DNA of 38,162 nucleotides from Bacteroidales bacterium. GTDB taxonomy: Bacteria; Bacteroidota; Bacteroidia; Bacteroidales; UBA10428. Under the pieces are notes generated by a model. That model searched no databases and was not told the DNA's origin. It was given only the letters and a program-made list of their open reading frames with translations. Of this stretch, positions 6,405-33,913 are shown piece after piece. How positions within the stretch are numbered: the stretch's first letter is position 1; every line of letters starts with the position of its first letter. Position numbers and translations under genes: made by a program. The stretch lies in contig JAFGGU010000082.1 of NCBI GenBank assembly GCA_016930375.1, positions 1 to 38,162 of the forward strand, given 5' to 3'.

Positions 6405-7120
6405 TTACAATTATACCCGCAGTTGATATCATCGGAGGAAAGTGCGTTCGCCTTGAACAGGGCGATTACCGGTTGAAAAAGGTATATGAAGAGGATCCCC
6501 TTTCTGTGGCCTTGCGATTTGAAGATCAGGGAATAAAAAGGATCCACGTGGTTGACCTCGACGGAGCAAGGGCTTCTCACATCGTGAACTACGGCACGCT
6601 TGAAAGGATTGCATCAAAGACCAAACTGGTTGTGGATTTTGGTGGCGGCATCAAATCCAGCAGTGATTTGCATATCGCATTTGACAGCGGTGCAGCCATG
6701 GCCGTAATCGGCAGTATTGCCGTAACCGACCGGGATCTTTTTCAGGACTGGTTGTTTGCTTACGGACCGGAGAAAATCATTCTCGGAGCTGATGTCAAGG
6801 AAGGCAAGATTGCCGTATCGGGCTGGACCGACATTACCGAAATCGGCCTGGTGGATTTCCTGACCTATTACAAGGCTTTCGGCGTAAATCAGGTGTTATG
6901 CACCGACATTGCCCGGGATGGCATGATGAAAGGCTCTTCCGTAGAACTCTATAAAAAAATGGTCATTGATTTCCCAACAATGCGGATCATTGCCAGCGGA
7001 GGCATATCATCCGTTGATGAATTGCACCAGCTGAACGACGCCAGCGTATCCGGGGCGATAATCGGAAAGGCAATATATGAGGGTAAAATTAAATTGGAAG
7101 AGTTGAGGGAGTGGTTATAA
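6401..7120 (+). CDS. hisA: ProFAR isomerase (phosphoribosylformimino-AICAR ribotide isomerase)
   Basis: A TIM-barrel isomerase opening the ribose of ProFAR to give PRFAR. It begins with IIPAVDIIGGKCVRL carrying the first catalytic aspartate. The second half holds ILGADVKEGKIAVSGW with the second catalytic aspartate near residue 130, and phosphate-binding glycines lie in IASGGISS and SGAIIGKAIYEGK. It overlaps hisH by four bases. The stop codon (7118-7120) is the first part of the heptamer array that separates hisA from hisF, the only large gap in this operon. Confidence 0.95.
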   Translation: MITIIPAVDIIGGKCVRLEQGDYRLKKVYEEDPLSVALRFEDQGIKRIHVVDLDGARASHIVNYGTLERIASKTKLVVDFGGGIKSSSDLHIAFDSGAAMAVIGSIAVTDRDLFQDWLFAYGPEKIILGADVKEGKIAVSGWTDITEIGLVDFLTYYKAFGVNQVLCTDIARDGMMKGSSVELYKKMVIDFPTMRIIASGGISSVDELHQLNDASVSGAIIGKAIYEGKIKLEELREWL

Positions 7121-7206
7121 GTTGTAAGTTGTAAGTTGTAGGTTGTAGGTTAACATACAACATACAACTTACAACATACAACATACAACATACAACATAC
7201 AACATA
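7117..7206. repeat. Inverted 7-bp tandem arrays between hisA and hisF
   Basis: The left arm carries four units (GTTGTAA twice, GTTGTAG twice) from 7120 to about 7147. The right arm follows directly with about eight CATACAA/CTTACAA units to 7206. About 35 bases of each arm are reverse complements with roughly one mismatch per unit and almost no loop (centre GTT/AAC near 7150). The hisA TAA stop is inside the array edge. The RNA could fold into a long imperfect hairpin within the his mRNA. Confidence 0.88.
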
Positions 7207-7230
7207 TCAATTAACAATATACATTGCTAA

Positions 7231-7986
7231 ATGCTTGCCAAACGAATCATTCCCTGCCTTGATGTCCGTAACGGGCAGACTGTCAAAGGGGTCAATTTTG
7301 TTAACATCCGTGAAGTGGGTGATCCCGTGGAAATGGGCGCTGCTTATGCCGAACAGGGCGCCGATGAACTTGTATTCCTCGATATTACAGCCAGTCATGA
7401 AGGCCGCAAAACTTTCGTGCAGCTCGTTAAACGCATTGCCGTTCATTTAAACATCCCGTTCACAGTGGGAGGTGGAATTGGTGCGCTCACCGATATCGAA
7501 GCACTGCTTGCCGCAGGTGCCGATAAGGTATCGCTCAACACCGCAGCTATCCGCACACCGGAGCTTGTTGATCAGATGGCACTGAACTTTGGAAGCCAGT
7601 TTGTAGTGGTGGCCATTGATGCCAGGGAAGAAGGCGGCAAATGGACAGCCTATATCAATGGGGGCAGGATACCCACTGAAAAGGAATTGTTTTCCTGGGC
7701 CAGGGAGTGTGAAGATCGCGGCGCAGGAGAGATCCTGTTTACATCCATGAATCATGACGGAACCAAAAACGGCTTTGCATGCGAGGCACTGGCAAAGTTA
7801 TCAGATATCCTGACCATTCCGGTGATTGCATCAGGTGGCGCCGGCAATATGGAGCACTTTGCCGAGGTGTTCACCACGGGGAAAGCAGATGCCGGACTGG
7901 CAGCAAGTATCTTTCATTTTAATGAAATAACCGTGCCCCAGCTAAAACATTACTTAAGGGATCGCAACATACCGGTCCGTTTATAA
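7231..7986 (+). CDS. hisF: Imidazole glycerol phosphate synthase, cyclase subunit
   Basis: A TIM-barrel partner of HisH that uses PRFAR and ammonia to make imidazole glycerol phosphate and AICAR. Catalytic aspartates are Asp11 in [14 protein letters not shown] and a second near residue 130 in [19 protein letters not shown] and [15 protein letters not shown] are further family signatures. The 251-residue length is normal. It starts 110 bases after hisA, beyond the heptamer hairpin, so its expression relative to hisH could differ; 40 bases separate it from hisE. Confidence 0.95.
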
Positions 7987-8026
7987 TTAAATTTGCCAAT
8001 CCCCTAAACCGCTAAACATCTATTCT

Positions 8027-8323
8027 ATGTCTGAAAATAACATCAATTTTCTGATTGAACTACAGAATCTTATTGACAGTCGCAGGACTGAAATGCCCGG
8101 GAATTCATACACCACCAGTTTATTTCAAAAAGGCATCAATAAAATTGCCCAAAAAGTCGGGGAAGAAGCTGTTGAATTGATCATCGAAGCCAAGGATGAT
8201 AACAGGGTTCTCTTCCTGAATGAATCGGCGGACCTTCTGTATCACTTACTGGTATTGCTGACAGCCAAAGACAGCCGGATTGAGGATGTGATAGAAGTGT
8301 TAAAGGAAAGACATCATGCATAA
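8027..8323 (+). CDS. hisE: Phosphoribosyl-ATP pyrophosphatase, stand-alone HisE domain
   Basis: Hydrolyses phosphoribosyl-ATP to phosphoribosyl-AMP and pyrophosphate. The 98 residues cover only the all-alpha MazG-like HisE domain, with KVGEEAVELIIEAKD and ESADLLYHLLVLL supplying the acidic Mg-binding residues. In Bacteroidota this domain is usually the C-terminal half of a roughly 200-residue HisIE protein. Here the cyclohydrolase half is missing, and the 40-base gap after hisF leaves no room for it. The first 20 residues resemble the inter-domain part of HisIE. The gene overlaps the next one by eight bases. Confidence 0.92.
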   Translation: MSENNINFLIELQNLIDSRRTEMPGNSYTTSLFQKGINKIAQKVGEEAVELIIEAKDDNRVLFLNESADLLYHLLVLLTAKDSRIEDVIEVLKERHHA

Positions 8324-9491
8324 AATAATCAAGGGGTATTGCTTCCGGTTGTTTTGCTACCCGGCAATTGCTTTCCTGCTCTTCTTTTCATGCCGGTCAA
8401 ATCATCGGGAAACCAATGCTGTGCCTGCTGATATCGTTACCCTTATTGCCCCGAAGGAAAAGCCGGTTGATTCTTTATTGACTGAAGAAACCAAGGCCCT
8501 CTGGATCAATCTGAAGAGACTTCAGGGCGGGGGAATTTTATTCGGTCAGCAGGATGCCACCCTATCAGGCGTCGATTGGAAAAATCAGGCAGGAAAGTCC
8601 GATGTGAAGGAAATCACAGGCACCCACCCTGCCCTTTACGGCTGGGAAATTGCAGGAAACGCAGGTGCAAACATCGACAGCATATCCCTGGACAGCATTC
8701 ATCAAAGAATGATCGGGGCTTTTGACCGGGGTGCGGTTAACACAGTCACCTGGCACCTGAACAACCCGTTGACCGGCGGAACAGCCTGGGATGTGACCCA
8801 GGCCGTCAGGCATATCTTGCCCGACAGTAATTTGCATATGCAATATAAGTTTGAATTACAAAGAATTGCAACTTTCTTCAGCCAACTGAGAAACGCACAG
8901 GGTATCCTGGTGCCTGTCATATTCAGGCCTTTCCAGGAAAGCAACGGCAACTGGTTCTGGTGGGGAAAGGGACATTGCACAGCAGATGAATACATACAAT
9001 TGTGGCGTTTTACGGTGACTTACCTGCGAGACTCGCTGCATGTGCATAACCTTTTGTATACGTATTCAGCCGACATGTTTGATTCACAGGAACAATACCT
9101 TGAAAGGTATCCCGGAAATGCCTGGGTGGATATCCTCGGATGTGAGAATTACTGGGATTTTCAGACAGGAATATCCATAGCGAATGGGATTAATCAGCTC
9201 AGAATGCTTGTCACCATGGCCAACCAGAGAAAGAAACTGGCTGCGCTCACGGAATGCGGATTTGAAGGTATCCCGGTTAGGAACTGGTGGACGCAGTTTT
9301 TACTCAAGCCTATCCGGGAAGATTCATTAGCACGAAATATTTCTTATCTCATGGTGTGGCGCAACAGTAACCGGAAACATTACTACACACCGTTCCCCGG
9401 CCAAAAAAGCGCAGCGGATTTTATCGCGTTTGAGCGGGATACTTTTACGATTTTTGAGCGGGACCTTAAAAACATTTATTTATCCGAGTAG
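8316..9491 (+). CDS. GH26-family glycosidase (beta-mannanase-like) lipoprotein
   Basis: A probable endo-acting glycoside hydrolase of the (beta/alpha)8 clan, possibly a beta-mannanase. An N-terminal hydrophobic segment ends at Cys26 (LLFFSC), suggesting a lipoprotein, although the lipobox is imperfect. The acid/base glutamate is probably Glu208 in FRPFQESNGNWFWWG and the nucleophile Glu313 in ALTECGFEG. The family usually has His before the acid/base Glu; here it is Gln207. The ATG lies inside the last codons of hisE (eight-base overlap), so it is read out with the histidine operon. The substrate is not fixed by sequence: GH26 also includes lichenases and mannobiohydrolases. Confidence 0.85.
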   Translation: MHKIIKGYCFRLFCYPAIAFLLFFSCRSNHRETNAVPADIVTLIAPKEKPVDSLLTEETKALWINLKRLQGGGILFGQQDATLSGVDWKNQAGKSDVKEITGTHPALYGWEIAGNAGANIDSISLDSIHQRMIGAFDRGAVNTVTWHLNNPLTGGTAWDVTQAVRHILPDSNLHMQYKFELQRIATFFSQLRNAQGILVPVIFRPFQESNGNWFWWGKGHCTADEYIQLWRFTVTYLRDSLHVHNLLYTYSADMFDSQEQYLERYPGNAWVDILGCENYWDFQTGISIANGINQLRMLVTMANQRKKLAALTECGFEGIPVRNWWTQFLLKPIREDSLARNISYLMVWRNSNRKHYYTPFPGQKSAADFIAFERDTFTIFERDLKNIYLSE

Positions 9492-9629
9492 CGTTGTCCC
9501 CCGCTGGCGGGGGTGCAGGGGGTGGATTTAATAAAGTTTCACCCTTTCAGGGCTCTGATGATTCGGATTCATTCATTAACGCAGGGTTGCACCCTGCGCT
9601 ATTACATTACGGCCTTACAGGCCTCTATT
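9492..9629. repeat. Cluster of four REP-like palindromes
   Basis: Four short hairpins follow the GH26 stop: CCCCCGC-TG-GCGGGGG (9498-9513), CCCT-TTC-AGGG (9542-9552), CGCAGGGT-TGC-ACCCTGCG (9580-9598) and GGCCT-TAC-AGGCC (9611-9623). They resemble REP-type intergenic palindromes. The first could help end the his transcript, but no T-tract follows it. The neighbouring genes converge here. Confidence 0.8.
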
Positions 9630-9631
9630 TA

Positions 9632-9690
9632 ACTACTGCCGTTACTTTTACTGCTGCTGCCGCTGCCGCTGCCACTGCTGCTGCTACAGT
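9632..9690. repeat. GCT/GCC-type short tandem repeat
   Basis: Runs of CTG, CCG and CCA triplets (core 9651-9687) behave as three- and six-base tandem repeats. On the minus strand they begin at the stop codon of the alcohol dehydrogenase gene (9684-9686). Similar GCT/GCC tracts occur at 23121-23148 and 33875-33913. Confidence 0.75.
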
Positions 9691-10856
9691 CTCTCCCTCA
9701 ACATCTCCACCAACTCCTCCTTTTCAAATATCACCGGGTTGGCCTTATGATCCGTATTTCCTGCGATTTTTTGCAGGTCGGCAGGAATAATTCCAAACTC
9801 ACCCAGACGCCGGATATGCAGGCTTTCTGTAAGTTCATCAATATAATCAGCAACAAATTTCATATGCCACCGAAGATTCCTATCATGCCTGCCGGATAAC
9901 AGTTTACCCAGTGAACCGTACTTTTCGTGCGCCTGAGTGATCTCATCCTGTCGGAGAAGAGCTTTGATATTGTGACGGTTCACCACACCCATCATGGTTC
10001 CGCAAATTACACCATGGGGAACCTGAAAAAAACCACCCACGGAAGAAGCAAACCCATGTATCAGCCCTAATCCGGCGTTTGCCAGGGTTATGCCAGACAA
10101 CAGGGATGCATAAGCCATGCCTGTTCTGGCCCTGATATCGTCGCCGCTCGTCACGGCTTTTAGCAGATTTGAATGGACCATCCTGATCCCTTCCAGGGCC
10201 AGCGCATCGGTTACCGGACCGGATTTAACCGACAGGTAGGATTCCATCAGCTGGGTGAAGGCATCCATTCCGCTGGAGGCGGTTATGCCGGGAGGGCAGG
10301 CCAGGGTAAGCTCAGGATCAACAAGGGCTATATCGGGAACCAGGTTTTCGTGACGAAGCGAACGCTTGTATCCCTGCGCGCCGGTTTCTGAAAGCACTGC
10401 ATTGGCAGTGGCTTCACTCCCTGTTCCGGAGGTGGTAGGCAGGGCAACAAAAAACTTTTTTATTCCGGGATGCGCCTGGGTTCCCACTCCTTCCAGGTAA
10501 TTCCTGACGGTTCCTTCAATCGGCAGCATGGCCGAAACAGCCTTTCCGGCATCCACCACACTGCCTCCGCCAATCGCAATGACCATATCCAGGTTGATGG
10601 ACCGGTACCGCTTCACAATCCGGTCAATGTCAGAAGGTGAGGGCTCTTTTTCAATCCTGTCGAAATGCAACGAAAACCCTTCATTCTCAAGTAGAAGATA
10701 CGTCCTGCCCAGAACAGGATACAGCTTATGTGAATGTCCCCCGGTAATAACCAGGATATGCCGGCCCAGCGTTTTAAGCAAGCCGGGAAGTCCTTCTGTT
10801 TGTCCCTTGCCAAAAAGGATCCTGGGTGTACGTATCAGGTTGAATTTACTTACCAT
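9684..10856 (-). CDS. Iron-type (group III) alcohol dehydrogenase
   Basis: A 390-residue NAD(P)-dependent dehydrogenase of the Fe-ADH/glycerol dehydrogenase superfamily. The Rossmann-like half has IAIGGGSVVDAGKAV near residue 95 and LPTTSGTGSEAT. In the metal site, Asp198 lies in GMDAFTQ, and two histidines lie in HGFASSVGGFFQVPHG (about residues 268 and 282). The usual histidine four residues after the Asp is Gln202 here, a variant that may alter metal choice. The substrate is unknown. The start overlaps the end of the ABM-domain gene by seven bases, so the two are probably coupled. Confidence 0.88.
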   Translation of the reverse strand: MVSKFNLIRTPRILFGKGQTEGLPGLLKTLGRHILVITGGHSHKLYPVLGRTYLLLENEGFSLHFDRIEKEPSPSDIDRIVKRYRSINLDMVIAIGGGSVVDAGKAVSAMLPIEGTVRNYLEGVGTQAHPGIKKFFVALPTTSGTGSEATANAVLSETGAQGYKRSLRHENLVPDIALVDPELTLACPPGITASSGMDAFTQLMESYLSVKSGPVTDALALEGIRMVHSNLLKAVTSGDDIRARTGMAYASLLSGITLANAGLGLIHGFASSVGGFFQVPHGVICGTMMGVVNRHNIKALLRQDEITQAHEKYGSLGKLLSGRHDRNLRWHMKFVADYIDELTESLHIRRLGEFGIIPADLQKIAGNTDHKANPVIFEKEELVEMLRERL

Positions 10857-11158
10857 TGGGATTTTTCAACCGGACAAACAACGATATGTTTTTCACCGCG
10901 CCTGGGCTGAGCCATCCAATCAGCAACCGTATCACGCCACTTGTGATAATGTGCGGTTTCTTTATGCGCTGCAACGGCTTCCTCCGATTCAAAAGCTTCA
11001 TAAAAAACGAACTTGGCCGGATTCCCGGCATCGCGAAGTATGTCGAACCGGAGGTTTCCCGGTTCTTTCACCGAATTCTTCTGGTTCTCCATCGTTGCTG
11101 CCACAAATGCTTCAACAAAGGGTTCTTTGACCCAAACATGAACCAAGGTTACGATCAT
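10850..11158 (-). CDS. ABM-domain protein (quinol monooxygenase / LsrG-like)
   Basis: A 102-residue single-domain protein of the antibiotic-biosynthesis monooxygenase fold, a small ferredoxin-like dimer. Recognisable parts are the first strand MIVTLVHVWVK, the middle segment EPGNLRFDILRD and the FYEAFESEEAVAAHKET helix with the family's conserved His. Relatives include YgiN quinol monooxygenase and LsrG, and sequence alone does not choose between them. It lies three bases after the S46 peptidase stop and overlaps the alcohol dehydrogenase, suggesting that it and the dehydrogenase act on one small metabolite. Confidence 0.82.
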   Translation of the reverse strand: MIVTLVHVWVKEPFVEAFVAATMENQKNSVKEPGNLRFDILRDAGNPAKFVFYEAFESEEAVAAHKETAHYHKWRDTVADWMAQPRRGEKHIVVCPVEKSQW

Positions 11159-11161
11159 GGG

Positions 11162-13315: not shown

Positions 13316-13423
13316 AAATTATATGGTTTAGTTTCTTTAATCTTATTCTTTGCATCTTAAATCTCAGATTAAAACTGATGCATAAATTTTGTAAGTTGAT
13401 GTATCCTTGGTTTTTCGGTTTTG

Positions 13424-13618
13424 GGCCACGAAGTGGCATAATCTGAATAACCGTGGGTGGTAACCCACGGAAATGAGCTGTGTAATAACACAGCCCTGAA
13501 GGGGCTGAATAACAAACCGGAATGCTGTTTTATTCAACCCCTTCGGGGCTGAAAATGTTTTCTATCCACTTATCCGTGGGTTTCACCCACGGTTATTCAG
13601 ATATAACCCCTTCGGGGT
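13424..13618. repeat. Composite cluster of REP-like palindromes
   Basis: This fills most of the gene-free stretch 13316-13684. Hairpins in order: GCCAC-GAA-GTGGC (13425-13437), CCGTGGGT-GGTA-ACCCACGG (13451-13470), GCTGTGT-AATA-ACACAGC (13477-13494), an AGCCC-TGAA-GGGGCT element (13492-13506), CCCC-TTC-GGGG (13538-13548), CCGTGGGT-TTC-ACCCACGG (13574-13592) and ACCCC-TTC-GGGGT (13606-13618). The outer parts form a larger inverted repeat: ATCTGAATAACCGTGGGT at 13441 matches the complement of the segment ending at 13602. The remaining sequence 13316-13423 is AT-rich with nothing clear beyond a small AATCT-c-AGATT dyad at 13360-13370. Confidence 0.88.
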
Positions 13619-13684
13619 CCAAAACAAGTCAAAAAATCAAAGATCGCTTATATTATATTTAACATCAATACTCTACAAGTATTT

Positions 13685-15800: not shown

Positions 15801-15818
15801 TTTTCAGGAATAAAAAAA

Positions 15819-15826
15819 CAAAAATA
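15819..15826 (-). promoter_or_regulatory. Possible -7 promoter element upstream of kdsC-like gene
   Basis: On the minus strand TATTTTTG fits TAnnTTTG and ends 19 bases before the ATG at 15800. No TTTG is present at the expected -33 spacing, because that position falls at the edge of the heptamer array, so this is only a weak call. Confidence 0.4.
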
Positions 15827-15840
15827 ATGAATTCTTGGAA

Positions 15841-15996
15841 TAGTGAAGAGTAATGAGTGATGAGTGGGTGAAGAGTCTTGGGTAGCGAGTGTGCCACACA
15901 CCAACCCATGCCCTTGCACACTCATTACTCTTCACTCATCACTCTTCACTCATCACTCATCACTCTTCACTCATCACTCTTCACTCATTACTCATT
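15841..15996. repeat. Inverted 7-bp tandem arrays (GAGTRAW family)
   Basis: The left arm has four units: TAGTGAA, GAGTAAT, GAGTGAT, GAGTGGG (15841-15868). The right arm has eleven units of ACTCATC/ACTCTTC/ACTCATT (15920-15996), the reverse complement type. The 51-base centre is itself partly symmetric (GAGTGTG/CACACTC). Read on the minus strand the right arm begins inside the DUF2520 gene and supplies its last codons and TAA stop. Confidence 0.92.
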
Positions 15997-16779
15997 ACTT
16001 CTAAATGCCGCAATACTCTCCGAAACCACCCTGTACAACTCCTTGATCTCCGGATGTTTATCAAGCATGGCCCGGTGCTTCTCAATGATCTCTTTGTTGC
16101 CACGGGCTGCAGGACCGGTTTGCGCGGCAAGGGGCGACATGAAAAGCGCTTTGGCAATGGTTTCCTCAATGAGAGGTTTTAACAAATCAAATGACAGGTT
16201 TCTCTCCTCCAGTAACTTTTCAGTAACCGCAAACATATGGTTCGTAAAGTTGGAGGCTATGACCGCCGCCAGGTGTAAATACGCGCGTTTTTCCGAATCT
16301 ACCACAAAAACGCTTTTGGACAGTTTACCCGCCAGTGTTTTGAGCATTTCAAGGTTTCTTTCATTACTCGCCTCAATAAAAAGGGGAATGTTGCTGAAGT
16401 CCACCGGTTTCCCCCTTGTAAAGGTTTGCAGGGGATACAAAACGCCGTAATTCTTTGCTTTGCCTTCAAAGATCGCCATAGGGACACTGCCTGCCACGTG
16501 CGCCACCAATCGCTTCCCAAAAGGCATTTGCCGCAAAAGCGAAGGGATTGCGTCATCGGTAACGGCAAGAAGGTATAAATCAGCATCCTCCGCTACCAGG
16601 TCCAGGCGATTGGTAAAACCGGTTCCCAGCTCATCCGCCAGGAGCTTGCCCATTTCCGGTGTGCGGCTGAAGACCTGCTTCACCTGAATTCCGGTTTCGG
16701 TAAAACGATGCCCCAGGTGCCAGGCGACGTTCCCGGCTCCCATGATGACAACCGACCGGATCTCAGGGAAATGCTTCAC
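15988..16779 (-). CDS. Rossmann-like / DUF2520 protein
   Basis: A 263-residue protein with an N-terminal nucleotide-binding Rossmann motif (VVIMGAGNVAWHLG, glycines 14 and 16) and a C-terminal helical DUF2520 region (from about residue 120), an architecture like F420/NADP-linked reductases and ketopantoate-type dehydrogenases. The reaction is unknown. It begins 11 bases after the GT39-like gene and probably shares its transcript. The final residues Ser-Asn-Glu-stop are encoded by the heptamer array (AGT AAT GAG TAA), so the native C-terminus may have been replaced. Confidence 0.82.
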   Translation of the reverse strand: MKHFPEIRSVVIMGAGNVAWHLGHRFTETGIQVKQVFSRTPEMGKLLADELGTGFTNRLDLVAEDADLYLLAVTDDAIPSLLRQMPFGKRLVAHVAGSVPMAIFEGKAKNYGVLYPLQTFTRGKPVDFSNIPLFIEASNERNLEMLKTLAGKLSKSVFVVDSEKRAYLHLAAVIASNFTNHMFAVTEKLLEERNLSFDLLKPLIEETIAKALFMSPLAAQTGPAARGNKEIIEKHRAMLDKHPEIKELYRVVSESIAAFRSNE

Positions 16780-16790
16780 TTTTCAAATGT

Positions 16791-21135: not shown

Positions 21136-21140
21136 TTCTT

Positions 21141-23119: not shown

Positions 23120-23120
23120 C

Positions 23121-23198
23121 TACTGCCGCTGCCACTGCTGCTGCCACTTCTCCCTACTCCCTACTCCCTACTCCCTACTCCTTACTCCCTACTCCTTA
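23121..23198. repeat. GCT/GCC tract followed by 7-bp array (CTCCCTA)
   Basis: A CTACTGCCGCTGCCACTGCT-type tract (23121-23148) leads into seven heptamers, CTCCCTA or CTCCTTA (23150-23198). On the minus strand the units read GAGTAGG/GAGTAAG. The rhomboid stop codon TAG (23189-23191) is one of these units, and decayed GAG-rich repeats continue into the coding region to about 23255. Confidence 0.88.
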
Positions 23199-23848
23199 CT
23201 CTCCTCCTCTTCTCCCATTCTCCCACTCTCCCCCTCTTCCTCCTCCTCCTCCTCCATATCACTGATAAACTTCGTAGGCCCCGGACCTTCATGCCTGTAA
23301 TATACAGCTAGCAGCACGCCCATCGTAAGCCCCACAAGGTGTGATTCCCACGACATGTCGGGGCGATAAGGAAATATGCCCCAGACCAGGCTTCCGTATA
23401 AAAAAATCACCAGCAGGGAAATTGCCAGGAGATTGATGTTCCGCCTGACGATACCGCTTACGAATAAAAAGGAGGCAAAGCTGTAAACCAGTCCGCTGGC
23501 GCCAATGTGATAAGATGGTCGGGCGATGAGCCATACAAACACCCCTGAAACCAGGTAGGAAATCAAAAGTACCCGCCAGGCAACTTTGTGGTAAAAATAA
23601 AAGATGGCAGTCAATAGAAAAAAAAAGGGAACTGAATTGTTGATCAGGTGGTTAAAATTAGCATGGATGAAAGGAGAAGTAAAAATACCGATCATACCTT
23701 CCACCTTTCGTGGAAAGACCCCATAATAATAAAGATCCCTTGCATCAACGACTTCAACAATCTTCACCAGCCATAAAACGATTATCATGATGGCTGGCGG
23801 GACAAGGCTCAGGGTAAAGCGCTTGTATTCAATGTTGTCGTCTTTCAC
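23189..23848 (-). CDS. Rhomboid-family intramembrane serine protease with repeat-derived acidic tail
   Basis: A 219-residue six-helix membrane protease. Signatures in order: HANFNHLINN near residue 60, the catalytic Ser in GASGL near residue 116, and the catalytic His in ESHLVG near residue 168. The last 21 or so residues are almost all Glu, Gly and Ser, and they are coded by GAG/GGA-rich sequence that grades into the heptamer array and supplies the stop. This tail is unlikely to be ancestral. The gene lies downstream of ilvC, from which it is separated by an inverted heptamer array, so it may or may not be part of the ilv transcript. Substrate unknown. Confidence 0.85.
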   Translation of the reverse strand: MKDDNIEYKRFTLSLVPPAIMIIVLWLVKIVEVVDARDLYYYGVFPRKVEGMIGIFTSPFIHANFNHLINNSVPFFFLLTAIFYFYHKVAWRVLLISYLVSGVFVWLIARPSYHIGASGLVYSFASFLFVSGIVRRNINLLAISLLVIFLYGSLVWGIFPYRPDMSWESHLVGLTMGVLLAVYYRHEGPGPTKFISDMEEEEEEEGESGRMGEEEESKE

Positions 23849-23860
23849 TTAAATAATCTG

Positions 23861-23955
23861 ATAAGTGATGAGTGACGAGTGATGAGTAATGAGTGGGCCG
23901 CTCAAACCACAAATCTCACTGAATACTCGTTACTCGTTACTCATTACTTGTTACT
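23861..23955. repeat. Inverted 7-bp tandem arrays between ilvC and rhomboid gene
   Basis: Left arm: five units ATAAGTG, ATGAGTG, ACGAGTG, ATGAGTA, ATGAGTG (23861-23895). Right arm: five units GAATACT, CGTTACT, CGTTACT, CATTACT, TGTTACT (23921-23955). The centre is 25 bases. The right arm contains the ilvC stop codon (minus-strand TAA at 23951-23953). Same GAGTRAN family as the arrays at 15841 and 30820. Confidence 0.9.
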
Positions 23956-25000
23956 TGGTCTTCGGACGAAGGTTCCTCACCTGTTGTCCTGCCTGCCACA
24001 TTTCCGATTCCCGGAGCTCTTTGAGCTCAATCTCGAGCAGCTCCCGGTAGTTGGGCTTTCCCGTAGATTCCAACACCCGTTTGGTTTCAGCACCGGACTT
24101 TACTTTGTTGTACAGATCATTGAAAACCGGCAAGGTAGCTTCCCTGAACTTGGGTCTCCAGTCAAGCGCCCCGCGCTGTGCGGTTGCGCTGCAGTTCGAG
24201 TACATCCAGTCCATTCCGTTCTCATCTACGAGGCGAATCAGGCTCTGGGTAAGCTCTTCAACGGTTTCGTTGAAAGCTTCGCTTGGACTGTGCCCATGGT
24301 GCCGTAAAACCTGGTACTGGGCATCCATGATACCCGCCAGGGCACCCATCAGTACACCGCGTTCACCGGTAAGATCGCTGTATACTTCATTCTCAAAAGT
24401 TGTAGGAAACAGGTAACCTGATCCGATGGCAATACCGATGGCCATGGTACGCTCCGTTGCGCGACCGGTAGCATCCTGGAAAACAGCATAGCTGGAGTTG
24501 ATTCCGGCACCGGCCAGGAAATTACGTCGAACACTGGTTCCTGAGCCCTTGGGGGCAACCAGAATGACATCGATATCAGCAGGAGGTATAACCCCGGTTT
24601 GTTCCTTATAGGTGATGGAAAACCCATGTGAAAAATACAGGGCATCACCCTTTTTAAGACAGGGTTTGAGTTTGGGCCAAATAGTGCGCTGCGCTGCATC
24701 AGAAACAAGGTACTGAATTATTGTTCCTTTTGTGGCTGCTTCTTCCACAGTAAACAGGGTTTTGCCCGGTACCCATCCATCTTTAACGGCTTTGTCCCAG
24801 TCGGACTTAAATTCCGGGGCCTGACCGATGATCACATGGATCCCGTTTTCTTTCATATTCAGTGCCTGTGCAGGTCCCTGAACACCGTATCCGATCACCG
24901 CAACAACTTCATTTTTCAGAATTTCCTGTGCTTTTTTCAACGGAAATTCTTCACGGGTTATAACGTCTTCAACTACTCCTCCAAAATTAATTTTTGCCAT
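23951..25000 (-). CDS. ilvC: Ketol-acid reductoisomerase
   Basis: Converts acetolactate or acetohydroxybutyrate to the dihydroxy acids using NADPH and Mg. The 349-residue length fits class I enzymes. An N-terminal Rossmann motif GYGVQGPAQALN lies near residue 38, LVAPKGSGTSVRRNF near residue 145, and the C-terminal knotted domain begins around GSGYLFPTTFENEVYSDLTGERG with the Mg-binding Asp and Glu. Last ilv gene, 26 bases after ilvN. The final codons run into the heptamer array. Confidence 0.95.
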   Translation of the reverse strand: MAKINFGGVVEDVITREEFPLKKAQEILKNEVVAVIGYGVQGPAQALNMKENGIHVIIGQAPEFKSDWDKAVKDGWVPGKTLFTVEEAATKGTIIQYLVSDAAQRTIWPKLKPCLKKGDALYFSHGFSITYKEQTGVIPPADIDVILVAPKGSGTSVRRNFLAGAGINSSYAVFQDATGRATERTMAIGIAIGSGYLFPTTFENEVYSDLTGERGVLMGALAGIMDAQYQVLRHHGHSPSEAFNETVEELTQSLIRLVDENGMDWMYSNCSATAQRGALDWRPKFREATLPVFNDLYNKVKSGAETKRVLESTGKPNYRELLEIELKELRESEMWQAGQQVRNLRPKTK

Positions 25001-25026
25001 GATGTGTTAAATATTAAATGATTGAT

Positions 25027-25620: not shown

Positions 25621-25625
25621 GTCTG

Positions 25626-29224: not shown

Positions 29225-29263
29225 AATGTTGTTAATCAATTTAATATATAAAACCATCAAATT

Positions 29264-29294
29264 AAAAAAGCCATTCTCTGTTGTAAGAATGGCT
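29264..29294 (-). terminator. Intrinsic terminator of the ilv attenuator
   Basis: On the minus strand AGCCATTCT (29294-29286) pairs perfectly with AGAATGGCT (29277-29269) across an eight-base loop, followed by a run of six T residues. It stands between the leader peptide and ilvD, 40 bases before the start codon, where no other gene ends. Confidence 0.88.
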
Positions 29295-29327
29295 CGTATA
29301 TATTATCTGCTATCGCAAACCATTCTC
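29286..29327 (-). promoter_or_regulatory. ilv antiterminator pairing
   Basis: Minus-strand GAGAATGGT (29327-29319), which overlaps the leader stop codon, can pair with the CCATTCT of the terminator's 5' arm (29292-29286; seven pairs, with G-U extension possible). This would break the terminator. A ribosome that finishes the leader would cover 29319-29327 and allow termination; one stalled earlier would leave it free. A separate pause hairpin could not be assigned with confidence. Confidence 0.7.
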
Positions 29328-29388
29328 ACCTCAGCCTCACAAGGACCACGAGGATGACCAGATTCACGATAATGATGATATTTCTCAT
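29326..29388 (-). CDS. ilvL: ilv operon leader peptide, 20 residues, 14 of them Ile/Val/Leu
   Basis: A short frame starting MRNIIIIVNLVIL has five Ile, five Val and four Leu codons in 20, then Arg-Leu-Arg and TGA. It sits 15 bases after a promoter and just before a terminator and ilvD, the arrangement of multivalent branched-chain attenuators such as enterobacterial ilvL. Its role would be to sense charged tRNAs for all three amino acids. The name follows function, not homology. Confidence 0.85.
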   Translation of the reverse strand: MRNIIIIVNLVILVVLVRLR

Positions 29389-29402
29389 GTTTTTCGTTTG
29401 GG

Positions 29403-29435
29403 CAAATATAGATAAATAAATGAACAATCGTCAAA
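29403..29435 (-). promoter_or_regulatory. Bacteroidota-type promoter of the ilv operon
   Basis: Minus strand: TTTG (29435-29432), 21-base spacer, TATATTTG (29410-29403), a full match to TTTG/TAnnTTTG. The leader ATG begins 15 bases downstream of the -7 element. Confidence 0.78.
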
Positions 29436-29480
29436 CTCTTTCAAAAAAATATACTGAAAATCTAAATATTTTCATAAAAT

Positions 29481-29511
29481 AAAGTTTAACTGTATTGATA
29501 TACAAACCTTT
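29481..29511 (-). terminator. Possible weak terminator after the zinc-ribbon methyltransferase
   Basis: On the minus strand an AAAG...CTTT dyad with inner GTAT/ATAC and TTT/AAA pairing and bulges is followed by ATTTTATG. It lies six bases past the methyltransferase stop. The stem is imperfect and AT-rich, so this is a tentative call. Confidence 0.3.
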
Positions 29512-29516
29512 AGTAA

Positions 29517-30284
29517 CTACAGTTTCTTATATCCATACATATACTCCATGGCAGGCAACCTGAAATGCTCACGGTCCTCCCGGCTCAGTGTGAGCAGGTA
29601 ATTCTCCTCCTCAATCACAAAACCTGCTTCGGTAAGCCGGTTCAGGTAATCCCGACCGTACATCCGGTAATGGTCTTTTTGCCTGAAGCGTTTCTCCCGT
29701 TCCAGGGGATCAGTAACGGAAGGATCCTCATTCGTTTCTTCCATGCTGTAATCCGTGGGCACCTGCAAAATGGCGAATCCCCCGTGGCGGAGCACCCTGA
29801 ATATTTCACGAATGGCTTTCCGGTCATCCGGAACATGCTCCAGAACATGGTTGCAGATCACGATATCAAATTCCTGGTCCCTGAAAGGCATCTCCTGCAC
29901 ATCCAGTTTAACATCTGCCAGTGGTGATTCCAAATCAGCAGTTACATAGGAAATGTTCTTCAGTTTCCTGAATCGCCTGTAAAAACATTGTTCAGGGGCT
30001 AAATGCAGTACTTTCAGAGAACCGGAAAAGAAGTCGGTCCGGTTCTTCAGGTAAAGCCACAACAGCCGGTGACGTTCAAGGGATAAGCAACCGGGACACA
30101 ATACATTTTCCCGTACCTGGTTATATCCGTAAGGAAGGAATTTCCTGAAGTGTCCGCCACATACCGGACATTCTACACGGCTACCCCTGTAAAACAGTGC
30201 GGCAGATTTCATGAAGATCATGCTGAGCCGTATGAGCCACGGTCGAGGTACATGGCTGAGCAATAACCTGATGATTCTCTTCAA
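29517..30284 (-). CDS. SAM-dependent methyltransferase with N-terminal zinc ribbon
   Basis: A 255-residue class I methyltransferase. After a hydrophobic or amphipathic N-terminus (about residues 1-34) come two cysteine pairs, CPVCGGHF (about residue 39) and CPGCLSLERHR (about residue 63), which could bind zinc. The methyltransferase core has LHLAPEQCF, VTADLES, FDIVICNHVLEHVPDD (about residue 137-152) and LRHGGFAILQVP. The substrate is unknown; CxxC-headed methyltransferases of this type are often near glycan genes. Monocistronic and divergent from the VOC gene. Confidence 0.82.
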   Translation of the reverse strand: MKRIIRLLLSHVPRPWLIRLSMIFMKSAALFYRGSRVECPVCGGHFRKFLPYGYNQVRENVLCPGCLSLERHRLLWLYLKNRTDFFSGSLKVLHLAPEQCFYRRFRKLKNISYVTADLESPLADVKLDVQEMPFRDQEFDIVICNHVLEHVPDDRKAIREIFRVLRHGGFAILQVPTDYSMEETNEDPSVTDPLEREKRFRQKDHYRMYGRDYLNRLTEAGFVIEEENYLLTLSREDREHFRLPAMEYMYGYKKL

Positions 30285-30372
30285 GGCAGTAAATTTTGAA
30301 AAATCCCGAAAACCGGAAAATTAAGCCTTTTATTATTTAATTTCGCGCTTTGAATAAAAAAATCAATACATC

Positions 30373-30837
30373 ATGAGACCATTTAAAGTTCTGGGCATTC
30401 AGCAAATTGCCATTGGTAATGAATCCAAGTCGCGCCTTCAAAATTTCTGGGTGGAGGTAATGGGACTTGAAAAAACGGGGACCTTCAGGAGCGAGCGGGA
30501 AAACGTGGATGAAGATATTCTGAGGATTGGAAAAGGACCGCTGGCTGTGGAAGTGGATATCATGCAACCCATCGATGCCGAAAAATCACCTAAAGTTCAT
30601 GAACCCAAACTGAATCATATTGGATTGTGGATCGACGACCTTCCAAAAGCGGTGGAATGGCTGACGGCCAAAGGGGTAAGGTTCACACCGGGTGGCATTC
30701 GAAAGGGTGCGGCCGGTTATGATGTATGTTTCATCCACCCGAAAGGGAATGATGAATTCCCGGTTTGCAGCGAGGGCGTGCTGGTGGAACTGGTGCAGGC
30801 GCCGGAGGAAGTTAGAAAAGTGATGAGTGATGAGTGA
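30373..30837 (+). CDS. VOC-superfamily protein (glyoxalase/epimerase-like)
   Basis: A 154-residue protein with two beta-alpha-beta-beta-beta modules. The first starts [13 protein letters not shown], the second [19 protein letters not shown]. Likely metal ligands are His in NHIGLWI (about residue 78) and Glu in [10 protein letters not shown] (about residue 142). It could be a lactoylglutathione lyase-like or methylmalonyl-CoA epimerase-like enzyme; the sequence does not decide. The last residues Val-Met-Ser-Asp-Glu and the TGA stop are encoded by the heptamer array beginning at 30820, so the C-terminal tail is repeat-derived. Confidence 0.82.
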
Positions 30838-30937
30838 TGAGTGATGAGTGATGAGTGGGACTTGGGCGAGAGTTTGGGCATGCTCACTTCCCAAAACCCA
30901 AATCCCACTTGTTACTCGTCACTCATTACTCGTTACT
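30820..30937. repeat. Inverted 7-bp tandem arrays between VOC gene and SRP RNA
   Basis: Left arm: five exact GTGATGA units (30820-30854). Right arm: TGTTACT, CGTCACT, CATTACT, CGTTACT (30910-30937). The 55-base centre is also partly self-complementary (GTGGGACTTGGG against CCCAAATCCCAC). The arms lie at the 3' ends of two converging transcripts: the left arm contains the VOC stop, and the right arm ends three bases from the SRP RNA terminator tract. Confidence 0.92.
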
Positions 30938-30946
30938 AATAAAAAA

Positions 30947-31048
30947 CCGGGTAAGCTTATCATATCGCGCCGCTACAACCGCCTACCCTTGCTTCCTTCC
31001 GGACCTGGGGGGATTCAGCAGGAGCTGACCGTATGAGACTTACCCGGC
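30947..31048 (-). ncRNA. ffs: Signal recognition particle RNA (4.5S-type, small bacterial)
   Basis: On the minus strand the invariant apical segment CAGGTCCGGAAGGAAGCA is present, with its GGAA tetraloop and the asymmetric internal loop that binds Ffh. The ends close by CCGGGTAAG (31047-31039) pairing with CTTACCCGG (30955-30947). A T-tract (30946-30941) follows directly, so the closing stem doubles as terminator. About 102 nt, the short type lacking the Alu domain. A full Bacteroidota promoter lies at its 5' end. Confidence 0.93.
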
Positions 31049-31052
31049 AGTG

Positions 31053-31083
31053 CAAAACTATGAACTTTTATTAAATTTACAAA
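31053..31083 (-). promoter_or_regulatory. Promoter of the SRP RNA gene
   Basis: Minus strand: TTTG (31083-31080), a 19-base spacer and TAGTTTTG (31060-31053), an exact fit to the Bacteroidota sigma consensus, ending about five bases before the RNA 5' end. It is the clearest promoter in the window. Confidence 0.85.
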
Positions 31084-31097
31084 AGATAAAATCCGGA

Positions 31098-31128
31098 TGT
31101 GCCGGAATGTTTAAAAACCCTATTTTTG
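31098..31128 (+). promoter_or_regulatory. Probable promoter of the DUF4199-GT2 pair
   Basis: TATTTTTG at 31121-31128 fits TAnnTTTG; TGTG at 31098-31101 is one mismatch from TTTG with a 19-base spacer. It lies 25 bases before the DUF4199 ATG and diverges from the SRP RNA promoter. Confidence 0.6.
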
Positions 31129-31153
31129 TTTTCAACTCTTAAACCCGGTATCA

Positions 31154-31720
31154 ATGGAAAAAAAACAGTCACTCCTGCAGTTTACCATGACCTATGGTGT
31201 CATCATGGGAATAGTATCCGTCATTTTTTCACTGATCATATACATGACGGGATTTATGCCGTACAACATCAAAAGAACCATCCTTGTCGGCCTGATCAGC
31301 CTGATTATTACCCTTGTTTTTATTGTGACCGGAACAAAAACATACCGCGATAAGATTCTGAATGGCACGATATCCTACTGGAATGCGGTTATGATAGGAT
31401 TATTGATAGTAGTTTTTTCAGCGGTCATCTCCAGCTTTTACTCCCTTATTTTTAACCTGTACATTGATCCCGAATACGTGAACAAGGTTACAGAAGCTTC
31501 CAAAAACTGGTGGTTTGATTACCTAAACAGGATTGGTGCTCCGGATTACCAGATTGAGGACATGATGGATAAGCTTGACAAACAGGTGGCCAACAACAGT
31601 CCGATCAAATCCTTTTTCCAGGGACTTTACGTATCGGCTATTTTTGGTTTGATAGTATCGCTGATCACCTCAGCATTTATCAAAAAGAATCCCAACCCTT
31701 TCTCCGAACCAACCGCCTAA
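31154..31720 (+). CDS. DUF4199 membrane protein
   Basis: A 188-residue membrane protein with four predicted hydrophobic helices (about residues 12-34, 40-62, 76-102 and 153-178) and a charged loop between helices 3 and 4. It matches the DUF4199 layout, a family found mostly in Bacteroidota. Function is unknown. It abuts the following GT2 gene with no intervening base (TAA then ATG), and the pairing suggests a role as partner of a lipid-linked sugar transferase. Confidence 0.78.
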   Translation: MEKKQSLLQFTMTYGVIMGIVSVIFSLIIYMTGFMPYNIKRTILVGLISLIITLVFIVTGTKTYRDKILNGTISYWNAVMIGLLIVVFSAVISSFYSLIFNLYIDPEYVNKVTEASKNWWFDYLNRIGAPDYQIEDMMDKLDKQVANNSPIKSFFQGLYVSAIFGLIVSLITSAFIKKNPNPFSEPTA

Positions 31721-32686
31721 ATGATACTGATGGCACCCGATATCTCTATAATAGTTCCTCTTTACAATGAAGCTGAATCGCTTCCTGAACTGGCAGCATG
31801 GATCAACCGTGTAATGGCTGAGAACCGGTTTTCTTATGAAGTAATAATGATTGATGACGGCAGCAATGACGGTTCATGGCAGGTCATCGAAAAACTTTCC
31901 GGGAATAATAAAAACATCAGGGGGATCAGGTTTCGCCGTAATTACGGGAAATCAGCCGCTTTGCATTGCGGCTTCCAGGCCTCCCTCGGAAATGTGGTAA
32001 TTACCATGGATGCGGACCTGCAGGACAGCCCCGATGAAATACCCGGTCTTTATAACATGATCTTCAGTGAAGGCTTTGACCTCGTGTCGGGATGGAAAAA
32101 GAAGCGGTACGATAACAGGCTGACCAAAAACCTGCCCAGCAGGCTGTTTAACTGGACCGCCAGGGTATTCAGCGGTATCAAGATACACGATTTTAACTGC
32201 GGTTTGAAAGCATACCGGGGTGATGTGGTTAAAACCATCGAAGTGTATGGCGAAATGCACCGCTATATTCCGCTTATTGCCAAAAAAGCCGGATTCAGGA
32301 ACATAGGTGAAAAAATTGTACAGCATCGCAAACGGCAGTTCGGAAAGACAAAATTCGGAATGGAACGATTCATCAACGGCTATCTCGACCTGATTTCCAT
32401 CTCCTTTATTTCGAGATTCGGAAGACGGCCCATGCATTTCTTCGGTACTCTCGGTTCTTTGATGTTCCTCCTGGGTTTTGGTATGGCCCTGTACCTGGGT
32501 ATCGATAAACTTATCGCCGTTGCCCATCACGTTCCTGCCAAACTGGTGACCCAAAGCCCCTATTTTTTTATTGCTCTTACTGCCATGATCATTGGAGCAC
32601 AATTTTTCCTGGCAGGATTCCTGGGTGAACTGGTTTCGCGATCATCAGCAAGCAGGAATGAATATCAGATTGAGAGAGAGATTTAG
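31721..32686 (+). CDS. GT2 polyprenyl-phosphate glycosyltransferase (GtrB/DPM-like)
   Basis: A 321-residue membrane-anchored glycosyltransferase. The N-terminal GT-A domain has ISIIVPLYNEAESLPEL, IDDGSNDGS and the metal-binding TMDADLQDSPDEIP near residue 95. Two C-terminal membrane helices (about residues 233-257 and 275-305) match bactoprenol glucosyltransferase/ArnC-type proteins, which load a sugar onto undecaprenyl phosphate at the inner membrane. The start may be 31721 or 31730 (MAPDIS). The stop is followed within seven bases by the heptamer array. Confidence 0.87.
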   Translation: MILMAPDISIIVPLYNEAESLPELAAWINRVMAENRFSYEVIMIDDGSNDGSWQVIEKLSGNNKNIRGIRFRRNYGKSAALHCGFQASLGNVVITMDADLQDSPDEIPGLYNMIFSEGFDLVSGWKKKRYDNRLTKNLPSRLFNWTARVFSGIKIHDFNCGLKAYRGDVVKTIEVYGEMHRYIPLIAKKAGFRNIGEKIVQHRKRQFGKTKFGMERFINGYLDLISISFISRFGRRPMHFFGTLGSLMFLLGFGMALYLGIDKLIAVAHHVPAKLVTQSPYFFIALTAMIIGAQFFLAGFLGELVSRSSASRNEYQIEREI

Positions 32687-32693
32687 AGGTTAA

Positions 32694-32770
32694 CGGTAAA
32701 AAGTATTCAGTAAACGGTAAACAGTAAAAAGTAAACAGTATTCGGTGTTCAGTATTCGGTGTTCGGTGTT
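32694..32770. repeat. 7-bp tandem array, eleven units (CRGTAAA / CRGTRTT)
   Basis: Exactly eleven heptamers: CGGTAAA, AAGTATT, CAGTAAA, CGGTAAA, CAGTAAA, AAGTAAA, CAGTATT, CGGTGTT, CAGTATT, CGGTGTT, CGGTGTT. Position 3-4 is GT in every unit. The array fills the gap between the two GT2 genes. Its units are the reverse complements of those at 33791-33874 on the far side of the second GT2 gene. Confidence 0.95.
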
Positions 32771-32790
32771 TCTTAATTGCTCAAAGAAAT

Positions 32791-33792
32791 ATGTTCTATT
32801 CGGTCGTAGTTCCAACGTTTTCGCGTCGTGATGAAGTGGCAGAATTACTTGCCAGTCTCGAATCCCAGCAAAATAAAAATTTTGAAGTGATTATCGCAGA
32901 CGGCAGTCTTGATGATTCAGTCAAGCGGGTTACAGATCAATACCAGGACAAGCTTTCCTTAAAACACCTTTACAAAAAAGGTCTGGGAATTAGTGAGTCA
33001 AGAAACTGGGGAGTTGAACATGCCATTGGAGACTATGTTATCTTTTTCGATTCGGATTGTGTTATTCCACCACAGTATTTTAAAGTTGCCGAGGACTACC
33101 TGGCTGTTGAACCATTAGACGCATATGGAGGTCCTGATAAAGCAAGCGAAGATTTCAGCATTAAACAGAAAGCGATAAGCTATGCCATGACTTCGTTTTT
33201 TACCACAGGTGGCATAAGGGGCAGAAAAGGTCATATCGGGCAGTACCAACCCAGGAGTTTTAACATGGGAATTCGCAGGAACATTTTCATTTCCCTGGGC
33301 GGATTCAGTGGTCTTAAGGTATCGGAGGATATAGACCTAAGCATGCGTTTGTACAGGAATGGTTACCGGGTTGGACTCATTGAACAGGCCTATGTATTTC
33401 ATAAGCGCAGGTCAACCTTCTATAAGTTCTTCCGGCAGGTTTTTTCCTTCGGAAGTGGTCGGATCGACTTGCAACTGCGACACGGAAATGCACTGAAACC
33501 AGTGCATACGTTACCTTCTCTGTTTGTGTTATACCTTGTTACAGGGATTGTTATCAGTTTGTTTTCAAAAACTCTTTTCCTGATAGGATTGGCATCTCTT
33601 GTATTCTATGCATCGGCAATCCTGATTGATGCCACGATGCAAAACCGAAGTATTCTGGTTGGCCTGATCAGTGTTTACGCTTCTTTCATAATGTTGACAG
33701 GCTATGGCCTCGGGATGATCAAGGCCGCCCTTATGAGATTTATCTTTCAAAGCAAGAAGGAAAGCGAAAAGCCGGAAATTACCAGGTACTGA
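32791..33792 (+). CDS. GT2 glycosyltransferase with C-terminal membrane helices
   Basis: A 333-residue protein. The GT-A domain starts FYSVVVPTFSRRDEV, with the acidic metal motif FFDSDCVIPP near residue 90 and the acceptor-side SEDIDLSMRLYRNGY near residue 180. From about residue 243 come three hydrophobic helices, so the enzyme is membrane-anchored, like many surface glycan assembly GT2 proteins. Donor and acceptor are unknown. The gene is bounded on both sides by heptamer arrays of opposite orientation, and its final residues (Ile-Thr-Arg-Tyr-stop) look drawn from the edge of the downstream array. Confidence 0.85.
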   Translation: MFYSVVVPTFSRRDEVAELLASLESQQNKNFEVIIADGSLDDSVKRVTDQYQDKLSLKHLYKKGLGISESRNWGVEHAIGDYVIFFDSDCVIPPQYFKVAEDYLAVEPLDAYGGPDKASEDFSIKQKAISYAMTSFFTTGGIRGRKGHIGQYQPRSFNMGIRRNIFISLGGFSGLKVSEDIDLSMRLYRNGYRVGLIEQAYVFHKRRSTFYKFFRQVFSFGSGRIDLQLRHGNALKPVHTLPSLFVLYLVTGIVISLFSKTLFLIGLASLVFYASAILIDATMQNRSILVGLISVYASFIMLTGYGLGMIKAALMRFIFQSKKESEKPEITRY

Positions 33793-33913
33793 TTACCGAT
33801 TACCGTTTACCGTTTACTTTTTACTGTTTACTTTTTACTTTTTACTGTTTACCTTTTACTGTTTACCTTTTACTGCTACTGCCGCTGCCGCTGCCGCTGC
33901 TACTGCTATTGCT
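33791..33913. repeat. 7-bp tandem array (TTTACYG type, twelve units) joined to GCCGCT hexamers
   Basis: Twelve heptamers run 33791-33874: GATTACC twice, GTTTACC, GTTTACT, then TTTTACT alternating with GTTTACT/GTTTACC. They pass without a gap into six-base units GCTACT, GCCGCT three times, GCTACT, GCTATT (33875-33910). Read on the minus strand the units are GGTAAAC/AGTAAAA, and they start five bases past the gmhA stop. The array separates two convergent genes. Confidence 0.95.

Follow-up and report, generated by a model that had tools for sequence, protein, structure and literature searches.

A 38,162-nt stretch of DNA of a Bacteroidales bacterium of the lineage UBA10428 (GenBank assembly GCA_016930375.1, contig JAFGGU010000082.1, positions 1 to 38,162 of the forward strand; this whole stretch is referred to as the window) carries seven tandem arrays with a 7-base period whose units differ from place to place, which raises the question of what generates them. 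A preliminary description had ascribed the arrays to one process acting on different seeds rather than to copies of a fixed element. Tandem Repeats Finder (TRF) together with reading of the sequence confirmed the seven arrays, their period and their places, as well as the presence of both orientations as adjacent inverted arms at four loci. We found that all six genes of this genome coding for a four-helix-bundle protein lie between mutually inverted arrays of one unit length, and we consider it quite probable that the heptad arrays of the window derive from the same insertion elements, as copies without the gene or with a single arm. A single generating process is supported, and the notion of different seeds was abandoned because unit families recur, some cores are near-identical and six of the seven window units match the arms of gene-bearing elements.

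A four-helix-bundle gene between inverted arrays

The first clue was the gap between hisA and hisF at loci L117, L118, L121 and L125 of relatives, in which arms of GGCAGAA-type units lie directly past the hisA stop. In L121 and L125 these arms enclose an open reading frame (ORF) for a four-helix-bundle protein; the letters enclosed in L117 and L118, which gave no tblastn match, were read as the remnant of such a gene. The corresponding Pfam family, PF05635, has six matches above the Pfam cut-off in the genome of the window (a draft of 3.97 Mb in 112 contigs, 85% complete), none of them inside the window itself, and is present in 19 of 23 genomes of the same taxonomic family, in 157 of 198 genomes of the phylum and in 0 of 14 control genomes. 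The arms of the six genes are built on GTRATGA (7), GTARGGA (7), a 10-mer, the 6-mer GCAGYR, an 8-mer and CAATTAA (7). At five of these six loci the upstream array begins −16 to +11 nt from a stop; at the remaining locus no gene ends close by on the upstream side. A gene-less second pair of inverted 10-mer arms lies about 1.1 kb from the 10-mer element (L208:3021-3271, plus-strand coordinates).

One flank test, for which the arrays on the two sides of a gene had to agree in period, was applied to all sets of loci. It was positive for 6/6 loci of this genome, 22/27 of the best-scoring loci from the rest of the family, 11/29 of the best-scoring loci from the phylum and 11/16 plasmid loci, compared to 5/385 control genes of 80-250 codons from the same genome (Fisher P = 1e-10, 4e-27, 9e-11 and 2e-14, respectively). 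The best-scoring sets consisted of 28 family loci from other genomes and 29 phylum loci, and L268, which contains no four-helix ORF, was left out of the counts. The 16 plasmid loci came from 32 records with a match (H1-H7, H9-H11, H13-H15, H19, H20 and H23), with cyanobacterial hosts for 14 of them, plus Gemmatirosa and Azospirillum. The gene-plus-arms anatomy is found on records of four phyla, two of these represented by one record each. Cyanobacterial elements sit behind cas6 (L312 and L315) and between nrdB and nrdA (L313). The five positive controls include one four-helix gene, the rhomboid gene of the window, which has an array on either side, and L245:7587-7886, which adjoins the element of L206. 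When the arms were instead compared by k-mer content, an inverted likeness of at least 0.3 within 400 nt was reached at 26/62 four-helix loci, and the slightly different cut used for the controls (0.4 within 300 nt) was reached at 2/385. One of these two matched-arm controls, L032:10302-11005, has octamer arms of the AGTCNTGC type around a 158-codon gene unlike the four-helix protein, and may represent other cargo or chance.

Three of the proteins of this genome scored 132-139 bits with TIGR02436, for which the cut-off is 24. The predicted structure of the L121 protein consists of four helices (pLDDT 94.8) and matches 2GSC of Xanthomonas campestris with a TM-score of 0.83-0.87; its nearest structures are 2GSC, 2RLD from Bacteroides and then Avd of the diversity-generating retroelement (DGR) complex, with TM-scores of 0.78-0.81 against 4DWL and 8UB7. 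The NCBIfam Avd model gave E-values of 1.5e-5 to 2.7e-7, but only 25-31 bits against a cut-off of 80. The four-helix protein is thus predicted to adopt the Avd fold, and falls outside the Avd proteins of DGRs by its score below the cut-off and by the lack of RVT_1, which had 0 matches in this 85% complete genome. Reverse transcription as the copying route in this genome is not supported for the latter reason.

A tree was built from the proteins of 50 of the 78 loci, namely those with a period called on both flanks. Unit length required 11 changes on this tree, compared to a mean of 15.9 after shuffling, and none of 200 shuffles gave so low a number. Nearest neighbours agreed in unit length in 34/50 cases for 23.7 expected, a value reached in 10/5000 permutations; near-copies among the loci contribute to this clustering. 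Hence, unit length follows the phylogeny of the protein, whereas the letters of the unit overall do not.

Six of the seven window arrays have from 8 to 59 11-mers in common with the flanks of four-helix genes of this genome or genus (L206, L207 and L266), a level of 8 that 0/500 control stretches of 90 nt, taken from ordinary and mostly coding DNA, attained. Both matches to L266 are one-sided, with one window array for each arm. Three hexamer arrays of the window also match a gene-bearing element, L209 or L263. These six window arrays, whose units are those of four-helix elements, are likely copies of such elements that lack the gene or one of the arms.

In Carboxylicivirga (L125:7682-11156), about 3.5 kb around the his genes contain three four-helix genes, each past a stop and each with an arm unit of its own. 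In several Bacteroidota (L285, L286, L289, L290, L292 and L300), a four-helix gene with short arms precedes what seems to be the same thiolase-type gene, with an arm unit that differs between species; these copies are possibly old and vertically kept.

Insertion as a block and turnover of units

Filled and empty versions of the same site were compared on plasmids, at sites distinct from the loci of the window. At the site filled in Trichormus (L317) and Scytonema (L318) and empty in Nostoc linckia (L339) and Tolypothrix (L340), the flanks are 97-99% identical and the arms and gene are gained or lost as one block. The sequence GTAAT, 5 bp containing the TAA stop of the upstream gene, has a single copy where the site is empty and borders the insertion on either side where it is filled. 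Between L317 and L318 the length of the left arm varies by 14 nt, or two units, and L341 carries a truncated version of the insertion there. Elsewhere, at a second site (L323 versus L350), TTCTA is doubled at a stop codon, and at a third (L313 versus L351) the 4-bp TTAG is doubled, again at a stop codon. Presence and absence of the gene were seen likewise at the sites of L319, L320, L321, L323 and L313. Examination by eye of seven sites for target duplication gave one clear case, two likely cases, three without duplication and one (L312/L345) with other sequence in the gap. The elements insert as a block, and insertion likely prefers stop codons; we claim no fixed duplication, and a general target duplication was not supported by a test of array edges at 50 loci.

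Across the genome the units recur in families. By eye, the heptads fell into GTRAYGA, GTARGGA, GTAAACR/GTATTCR, GTTGTAD and GTGAATA, next to the octamers GTGATKAR and AGTCNTGC, the hexamer GTRGCA and the nonamer GTGRTTGTT. About four tandem copies of GTRAYGA were found 24+28 times in this genome, 3+1 times in G007 and 1+1 times in G020, while the remaining 57 of the 60 genomes searched had none. Reading of the sequences revealed near-identical cores of about 50 nt at separate loci (L046 and L071; L064, L086 and L031), and gene-less two-armed loci whose inner repeats of the GGGATTTGGGTTTTGGG type are common to L206 and, in part, L209.

Turnover of units between orthologous loci, which had been suggested as a comparison to make, was observed at both places compared, where the relatives have other units or none. 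In the hisA-hisF gap, the array type of our genome is absent in 9/9 relatives of the genus, with a short ACTTACAAC-like stretch in G009. At the ilvC site, inspected by eye in seven relatives, G009 has a two-armed GGGACRA element, G007 has GAATGAY arms and G004 a short hairpin, and no heptad arms were seen in G001, G002, G003 and G008. A GGGACRA array of G009 also lies beside the four-helix gene of L258. On reading, seemingly orthologous sites hold different units with both arms altered together. We therefore gave up the idea that each array grew out of the stop codon of its own gene as a seed, given the recurring unit families and the different or missing units in orthologous gaps.

Arrays across the genome and along the window

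To measure the period independently of any pattern match, we scanned 60 stretches of this genome taken in contig order (840 kb). Thirty loci had a period of 7, compared to 8, 6 and 3 loci for periods 8, 9 and 6, and other periods that are no multiples of 6-9 had 1-4 loci each, in line with the proposed genome-wide excess of period 7. A Markov resample gave 1 locus at every period, as did the real sequence at several; this baseline probably reflects a single N run. Four spaced GTRR units matched 227+323 times in the genome, compared to 86+118 times for the reversed pattern. Arrays with unit lengths of 6, 8, 9 and 10, overlooked at first, are part of the same picture as the heptads. Concern that the arrays might be assembly artefacts is allayed in part, as matching arms are present in finished plasmids. 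Some contigs of this genome break off within long arrays: L036, L045, L067, L077 and L078 have a near-perfect array of 84-94 nt at their start or end, probably reflecting the inability of the assembler to cross longer arrays.

The position of arrays relative to gene ends was then assessed in 1.245 Mb of this genome, made up of 20 stretches from contigs with pattern matches (which also entered the array listing and the reading of unit families) and the 60 later stretches, with genes called as ORFs by our own codon-usage procedure. Among gaps of at least 40 nt, arrays occurred in 21/68 convergent, 37/269 tandem and 6/126 divergent ones, and five shorter gaps contained arrays as well. In tandem gaps of any length, 34/39 arrays were closer to the upstream stop than to the next start, 28/39 began at most 5 nt from the stop or overlapped it, and 20/39 overlapped or touched it; uniform placement gave a mean of 11.8/39 and never reached 28 in 5000 trials. 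The arrays therefore lie at the 3′ ends of genes. Of 99 arrays of this genome that lie at the 3′ end of a gene, 71 had more stop triplets in the sense than in the antisense direction, 18 had fewer and 10 had equal numbers, an excess that is partly expected because arrays overlap a stop. The arms of 43 four-helix loci showed the same bias in 30 cases and the reverse in 9. Such positions are hard to reconcile with sites of a post-transcriptional regulator ahead of start codons, the role suggested for TAACTGA in Beggiatoaceae (in the available part of PMC4679880); besides the nearness of 34 of the 39 arrays to the upstream gene end, units differ between loci, and we give this explanation next to no credence.

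Ordinary microsatellites would be another cause: a step of 7 nt would be preferred in polymerase slippage, and arrays would persist just past stops, where they harm neither coding sequence nor promoters, a space merely shared by four-helix genes. Consistent with this, heptanucleotides are reported to be the commonest long repeat class in most surveyed genomes, with slippage proposed as the cause (in the available part of PMC4679880), many arrays have only one arm, length differences between arms amount to whole units and arrays are rare in divergent gaps compared to convergent ones. Slippage, however, does not account for the matched flanks of 6/6 four-helix genes compared to 5/385 controls, for arms that are inverted, alike and gained or lost with the gene as one block, for a unit length that follows the protein phylogeny, or for dispersed cores. 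We thus regard microsatellites as an unlikely explanation, albeit the least unlikely of the rivals to insertion elements considered here.

Along the window, TRF reported period-7 arrays at 7114-7206, 15919-15999, 23150-23201, 23859-23895, 23924-23955, 30819-30857, 30907-30937, 32692-32770 and 33787-33875, and a separate arm analysis added the short left arm at 15838-15866. The four inverted pairs have arm starts at 7114/7152, 15838/15919, 23859/23924 and 30819/30890. Most arms fit GTRRNNN in one orientation, so that the suggested common GTRR pattern stands for them and fails for most of 7152-7206 (mostly GTATGTT) and part of 32730-32770 (GTATTCG and GTGTTCG).

The first pair joins a plus-strand arm of GTADGTT units (7114..7151), in register with the TAA stop (7118-7120) of a hisA-like gene (6401-7120), without spacer to a minus-strand arm of GTATGTT and GTAAGTT units (7152..7206); no gene-bearing relative of this pair was found. 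In the second, a left arm of GTRAYGA and GTGAAGA (15838..15866, plus strand) is separated by a 52-nt spacer (15867..15918) from a minus-strand right arm (15919..15999) in which the minus-strand gene 15988-16779 has its TAA stop (15988-15990). The third has a GTRAYGA left arm (23859..23894, plus strand), a 29-nt spacer (23895..23923) and a minus-strand right arm (23924..23957) that overlaps ilvC (23951-25000) at its 3′ end. In the fourth, the left arm of perfect GTGATGA (30819..30857, plus strand) provides the TGA stop (30835-30837) of a glyoxalase-type gene (30373-30837), the spacer (30858..30889) holds an inner repeat, GGGACTTGGGCGAGAGTTTGGGCATG, that resembles the inner ends of the gene-bearing L206, and the right arm (30890..30937, minus strand) adjoins an RNA gene. 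This gene codes for a small signal recognition particle RNA of Bacteroidales type on the minus strand (30945-31052).

Three heptad arrays are single. The GTARGGA array at 23147..23201 (minus strand) overlaps the 3′ end of the rhomboid gene (23189-23848) and has its unit in common with gene-bearing elements of this genome (L207) and of a Nostoc plasmid (L313). The array of GTAAACR, GTATTCG and GTGTTCG at 32692..32770 (plus strand) begins 6 nt past the stop of the gene 31721-32686 and has the unit of one arm of L266, a gene-bearing element of the same genus. The GTAAACR array at 33778..33875 (minus strand), which has the unit of the other arm of L266, is exceptional in overlapping the stop of the plus-strand gene 32791-33792 in antisense, and points to the minus-strand gene 33918-34598. 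Arrays of other periods accompany them: hexamers of CAGYRG type at 23120..23149 (minus strand; unit common to the gene-bearing L209 and L263), hexamers adjoining the last heptad array at 33871..33913 (minus strand; unit of L209/L263), hexamers at 9642..9685 (minus strand; unit of the gene-bearing L209) at the TAG stop (9684-9686) of the minus-strand gene 9684-10856, and a 9/18-mer array at 322..373 (plus strand), 12 nt past the TAA stop at 308-310, for which no gene-bearing relative was found.

That the two-armed loci fold could mean that RNA hairpins are under selection as terminators, stabilisers of mRNA 3′ ends or RNase III sites, as in the intervening sequences of 23S rRNA. All four window pairs fold, with z from −7.9 (7114-7206) through −9.5 (23859-23957) to −10.6 (30819-30937), and convergent gaps are favoured. 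However, the two single-armed window arrays that were folded, among them 32692..32770, gave z of 0.2 and 0.9 and no stable hairpin, and mismatches between the arms at 22 loci showed no preference for G-U (123) over A-C (111, P = 0.47), leaving RNA-level selection on the arms unsupported. As unit length and gene content would also lack an explanation, we judge this improbable.

Repetitive extragenic palindromes (REPs) moved by a Y1 (RAYT) transposase, with GTAG or GTRA tags beside hairpins, would be another source. Two Y1_Tnp genes exist in this genome (L309 and L310), unlinked to arrays, and GTAG tags are carried by REPs (in the available part of PMC3733652). Nevertheless, no tandem arrays were found in 3.3 kb around either gene, both being flanked by other palindromes, and unit lengths of 6 to 10 and units without GTRR (GGCAGAA and AAAAGCT) do not fit. 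The Y1 transposase is not supported as the carrier, and we hold this source to be very improbable. In the window, a match to the Rfam family Acido-Lenti-1 (9580-9624) lies within palindromic stretches, CAGGGTTGCACCCTG and GGCCTTACAGGCC (9541-9640), that resemble the palindromes around L309 and L310 and likely form a separate REP-type family.

Known repeats and a proposed mechanism

Intervening sequences of 23S rRNA with an IVP/S23 gene are inserted segments whose ends are able to pair. The elements described here resemble them in the PF05635 protein family and in being inserted segments with pairing ends, but they lie past or inside the stops of protein genes, include many gene-less copies and have arms built as tandem arrays with units of 6-10 nt. 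In animals and plants, foldback transposons have long inverted arms of tandem subrepeats around a middle part; our elements likewise have inverted arms made of tandem subrepeats, but are bacterial and much smaller, with six-to-ten-base units, an Avd-like gene and no known transposase. To Avd of DGRs the likeness is one of predicted fold, unlike in score and in the lack of RVT_1 as described above. BrickBuilt miniature inverted-repeat transposable elements of Porphyromonas are described in the available part of PMC4596501 as intergenic, with inverted ends and a tandem array of a 23-nt unit; that array lies inside the element, whereas here the arrays themselves are the arms.

Short tandemly repeated repetitive sequences (STRR) are the heptanucleotide tandem repeats of cyanobacteria. 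The suspected likeness to them is borne out by heptad arms around four-helix genes on cyanobacterial plasmids, and is one of anatomy. The available part of PMC4692102 describes heptad repeats of Xanthomonas (GGGAATC) and Nostoc (GGGGAYT), many of the former in close inverted pairs (70 and 75 cases), at most 50 bp from stops on the sense strand or overlapping them and seldom between divergent genes, with no gene linked to the repeats and an association with mobile elements generally not found. The Xanthomonas heptads thus resemble the window arrays in forming inverted pairs at stop codons. The genome of Xanthomonas campestris holds a four-helix gene, XCC0516 (PDB 2GSC).

Contrary to the impression that no such repeats had been described for Bacteroidota, the available part of PMC4679880 reports TAACTGA direct repeats in five Bacteroidetes as well as in Cyanobacteria and Beggiatoaceae, notes their stops in three frames and reads this single unit as a regulator site ahead of start codons. 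Our arrays are similarly heptads with stops in three frames, but have several units and lie at gene ends. Neither "helix bundle" nor "S23" occurs in the main text of that report, and a link of heptad arrays to four-helix genes did not turn up in searches of an open-access library, subscription papers lying outside the search.

Most window heptad arrays are likely the remains of mobile elements prone to insert at stop codons. We propose, with a confidence no better than even, a class of transposase-less foldback elements that have stop-bearing arm units of 6-10 nt, an Avd-like reader of unit length as sole protein and stop codons as target, and whose remnants would be the heptad arrays of Bacteroidota, Cyanobacteria (STRR), Beggiatoaceae and Xanthomonas. 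An enzyme acting in trans would likely insert the element near stop codons. The units of the element would tend to carry stop triplets on the strand that reads as coding for the invaded gene, and since unit lengths of 7, 8 or 10 place stops in all three frames, a gene running into an arm would end cleanly, within about 3 units. Because unit length follows the protein phylogeny, the four-helix protein encoded by an element is likely to bind that element's repeat units. Slippage would make the arms lengthen and shorten by whole units, and foldback copying of one arm from the other would keep them alike.

Several observations weigh against insertion elements as the source. No mobilising enzyme was found in this genome among the only families searched, Y1_Tnp and RVT_1. 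Arrays are far more numerous than four-helix genes, many being one-armed, and outside the family only 11/29 phylum loci pass the flank test, the rest having short or no arms. The letters of the unit correlate poorly with protein similarity (Mantel 0.098, with 182/2000 permutations as high). An outer 5-mer is common to both edges in 8/50 loci, compared to 8.66 in shuffled pairs; no duplication is evident at the filled and empty sites of L319, L320 and L321, and L345 has other sequence than L312 in the gap. In the window, 7114-7206 matches no gene-bearing element among those examined, 33778-33875 overlaps the stop of a gene in antisense orientation, and at 3 common 11-mers 31 of up to 200 control stretches, again ordinary and mostly coding DNA, match as well. 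Lastly, the GGGAATC units of Xanthomonas, of similar published anatomy, have no stop triplet in either direction.

To our knowledge, the four-helix-bundle or S23 protein, although widespread and annotated, has no known role outside rRNA insertions. A link between heptad arrays and this protein would give both a testable cause, account for the position of the arrays at stop codons and indicate a family of mobile elements that gene-based annotation would miss. Heptad arrays in very different bacteria have earlier been ascribed to slippage or to unknown regulators, and an origin from such elements would supply their cause. If the protein reads unit length, this would be a new way for a protein to know the ends of its own DNA.

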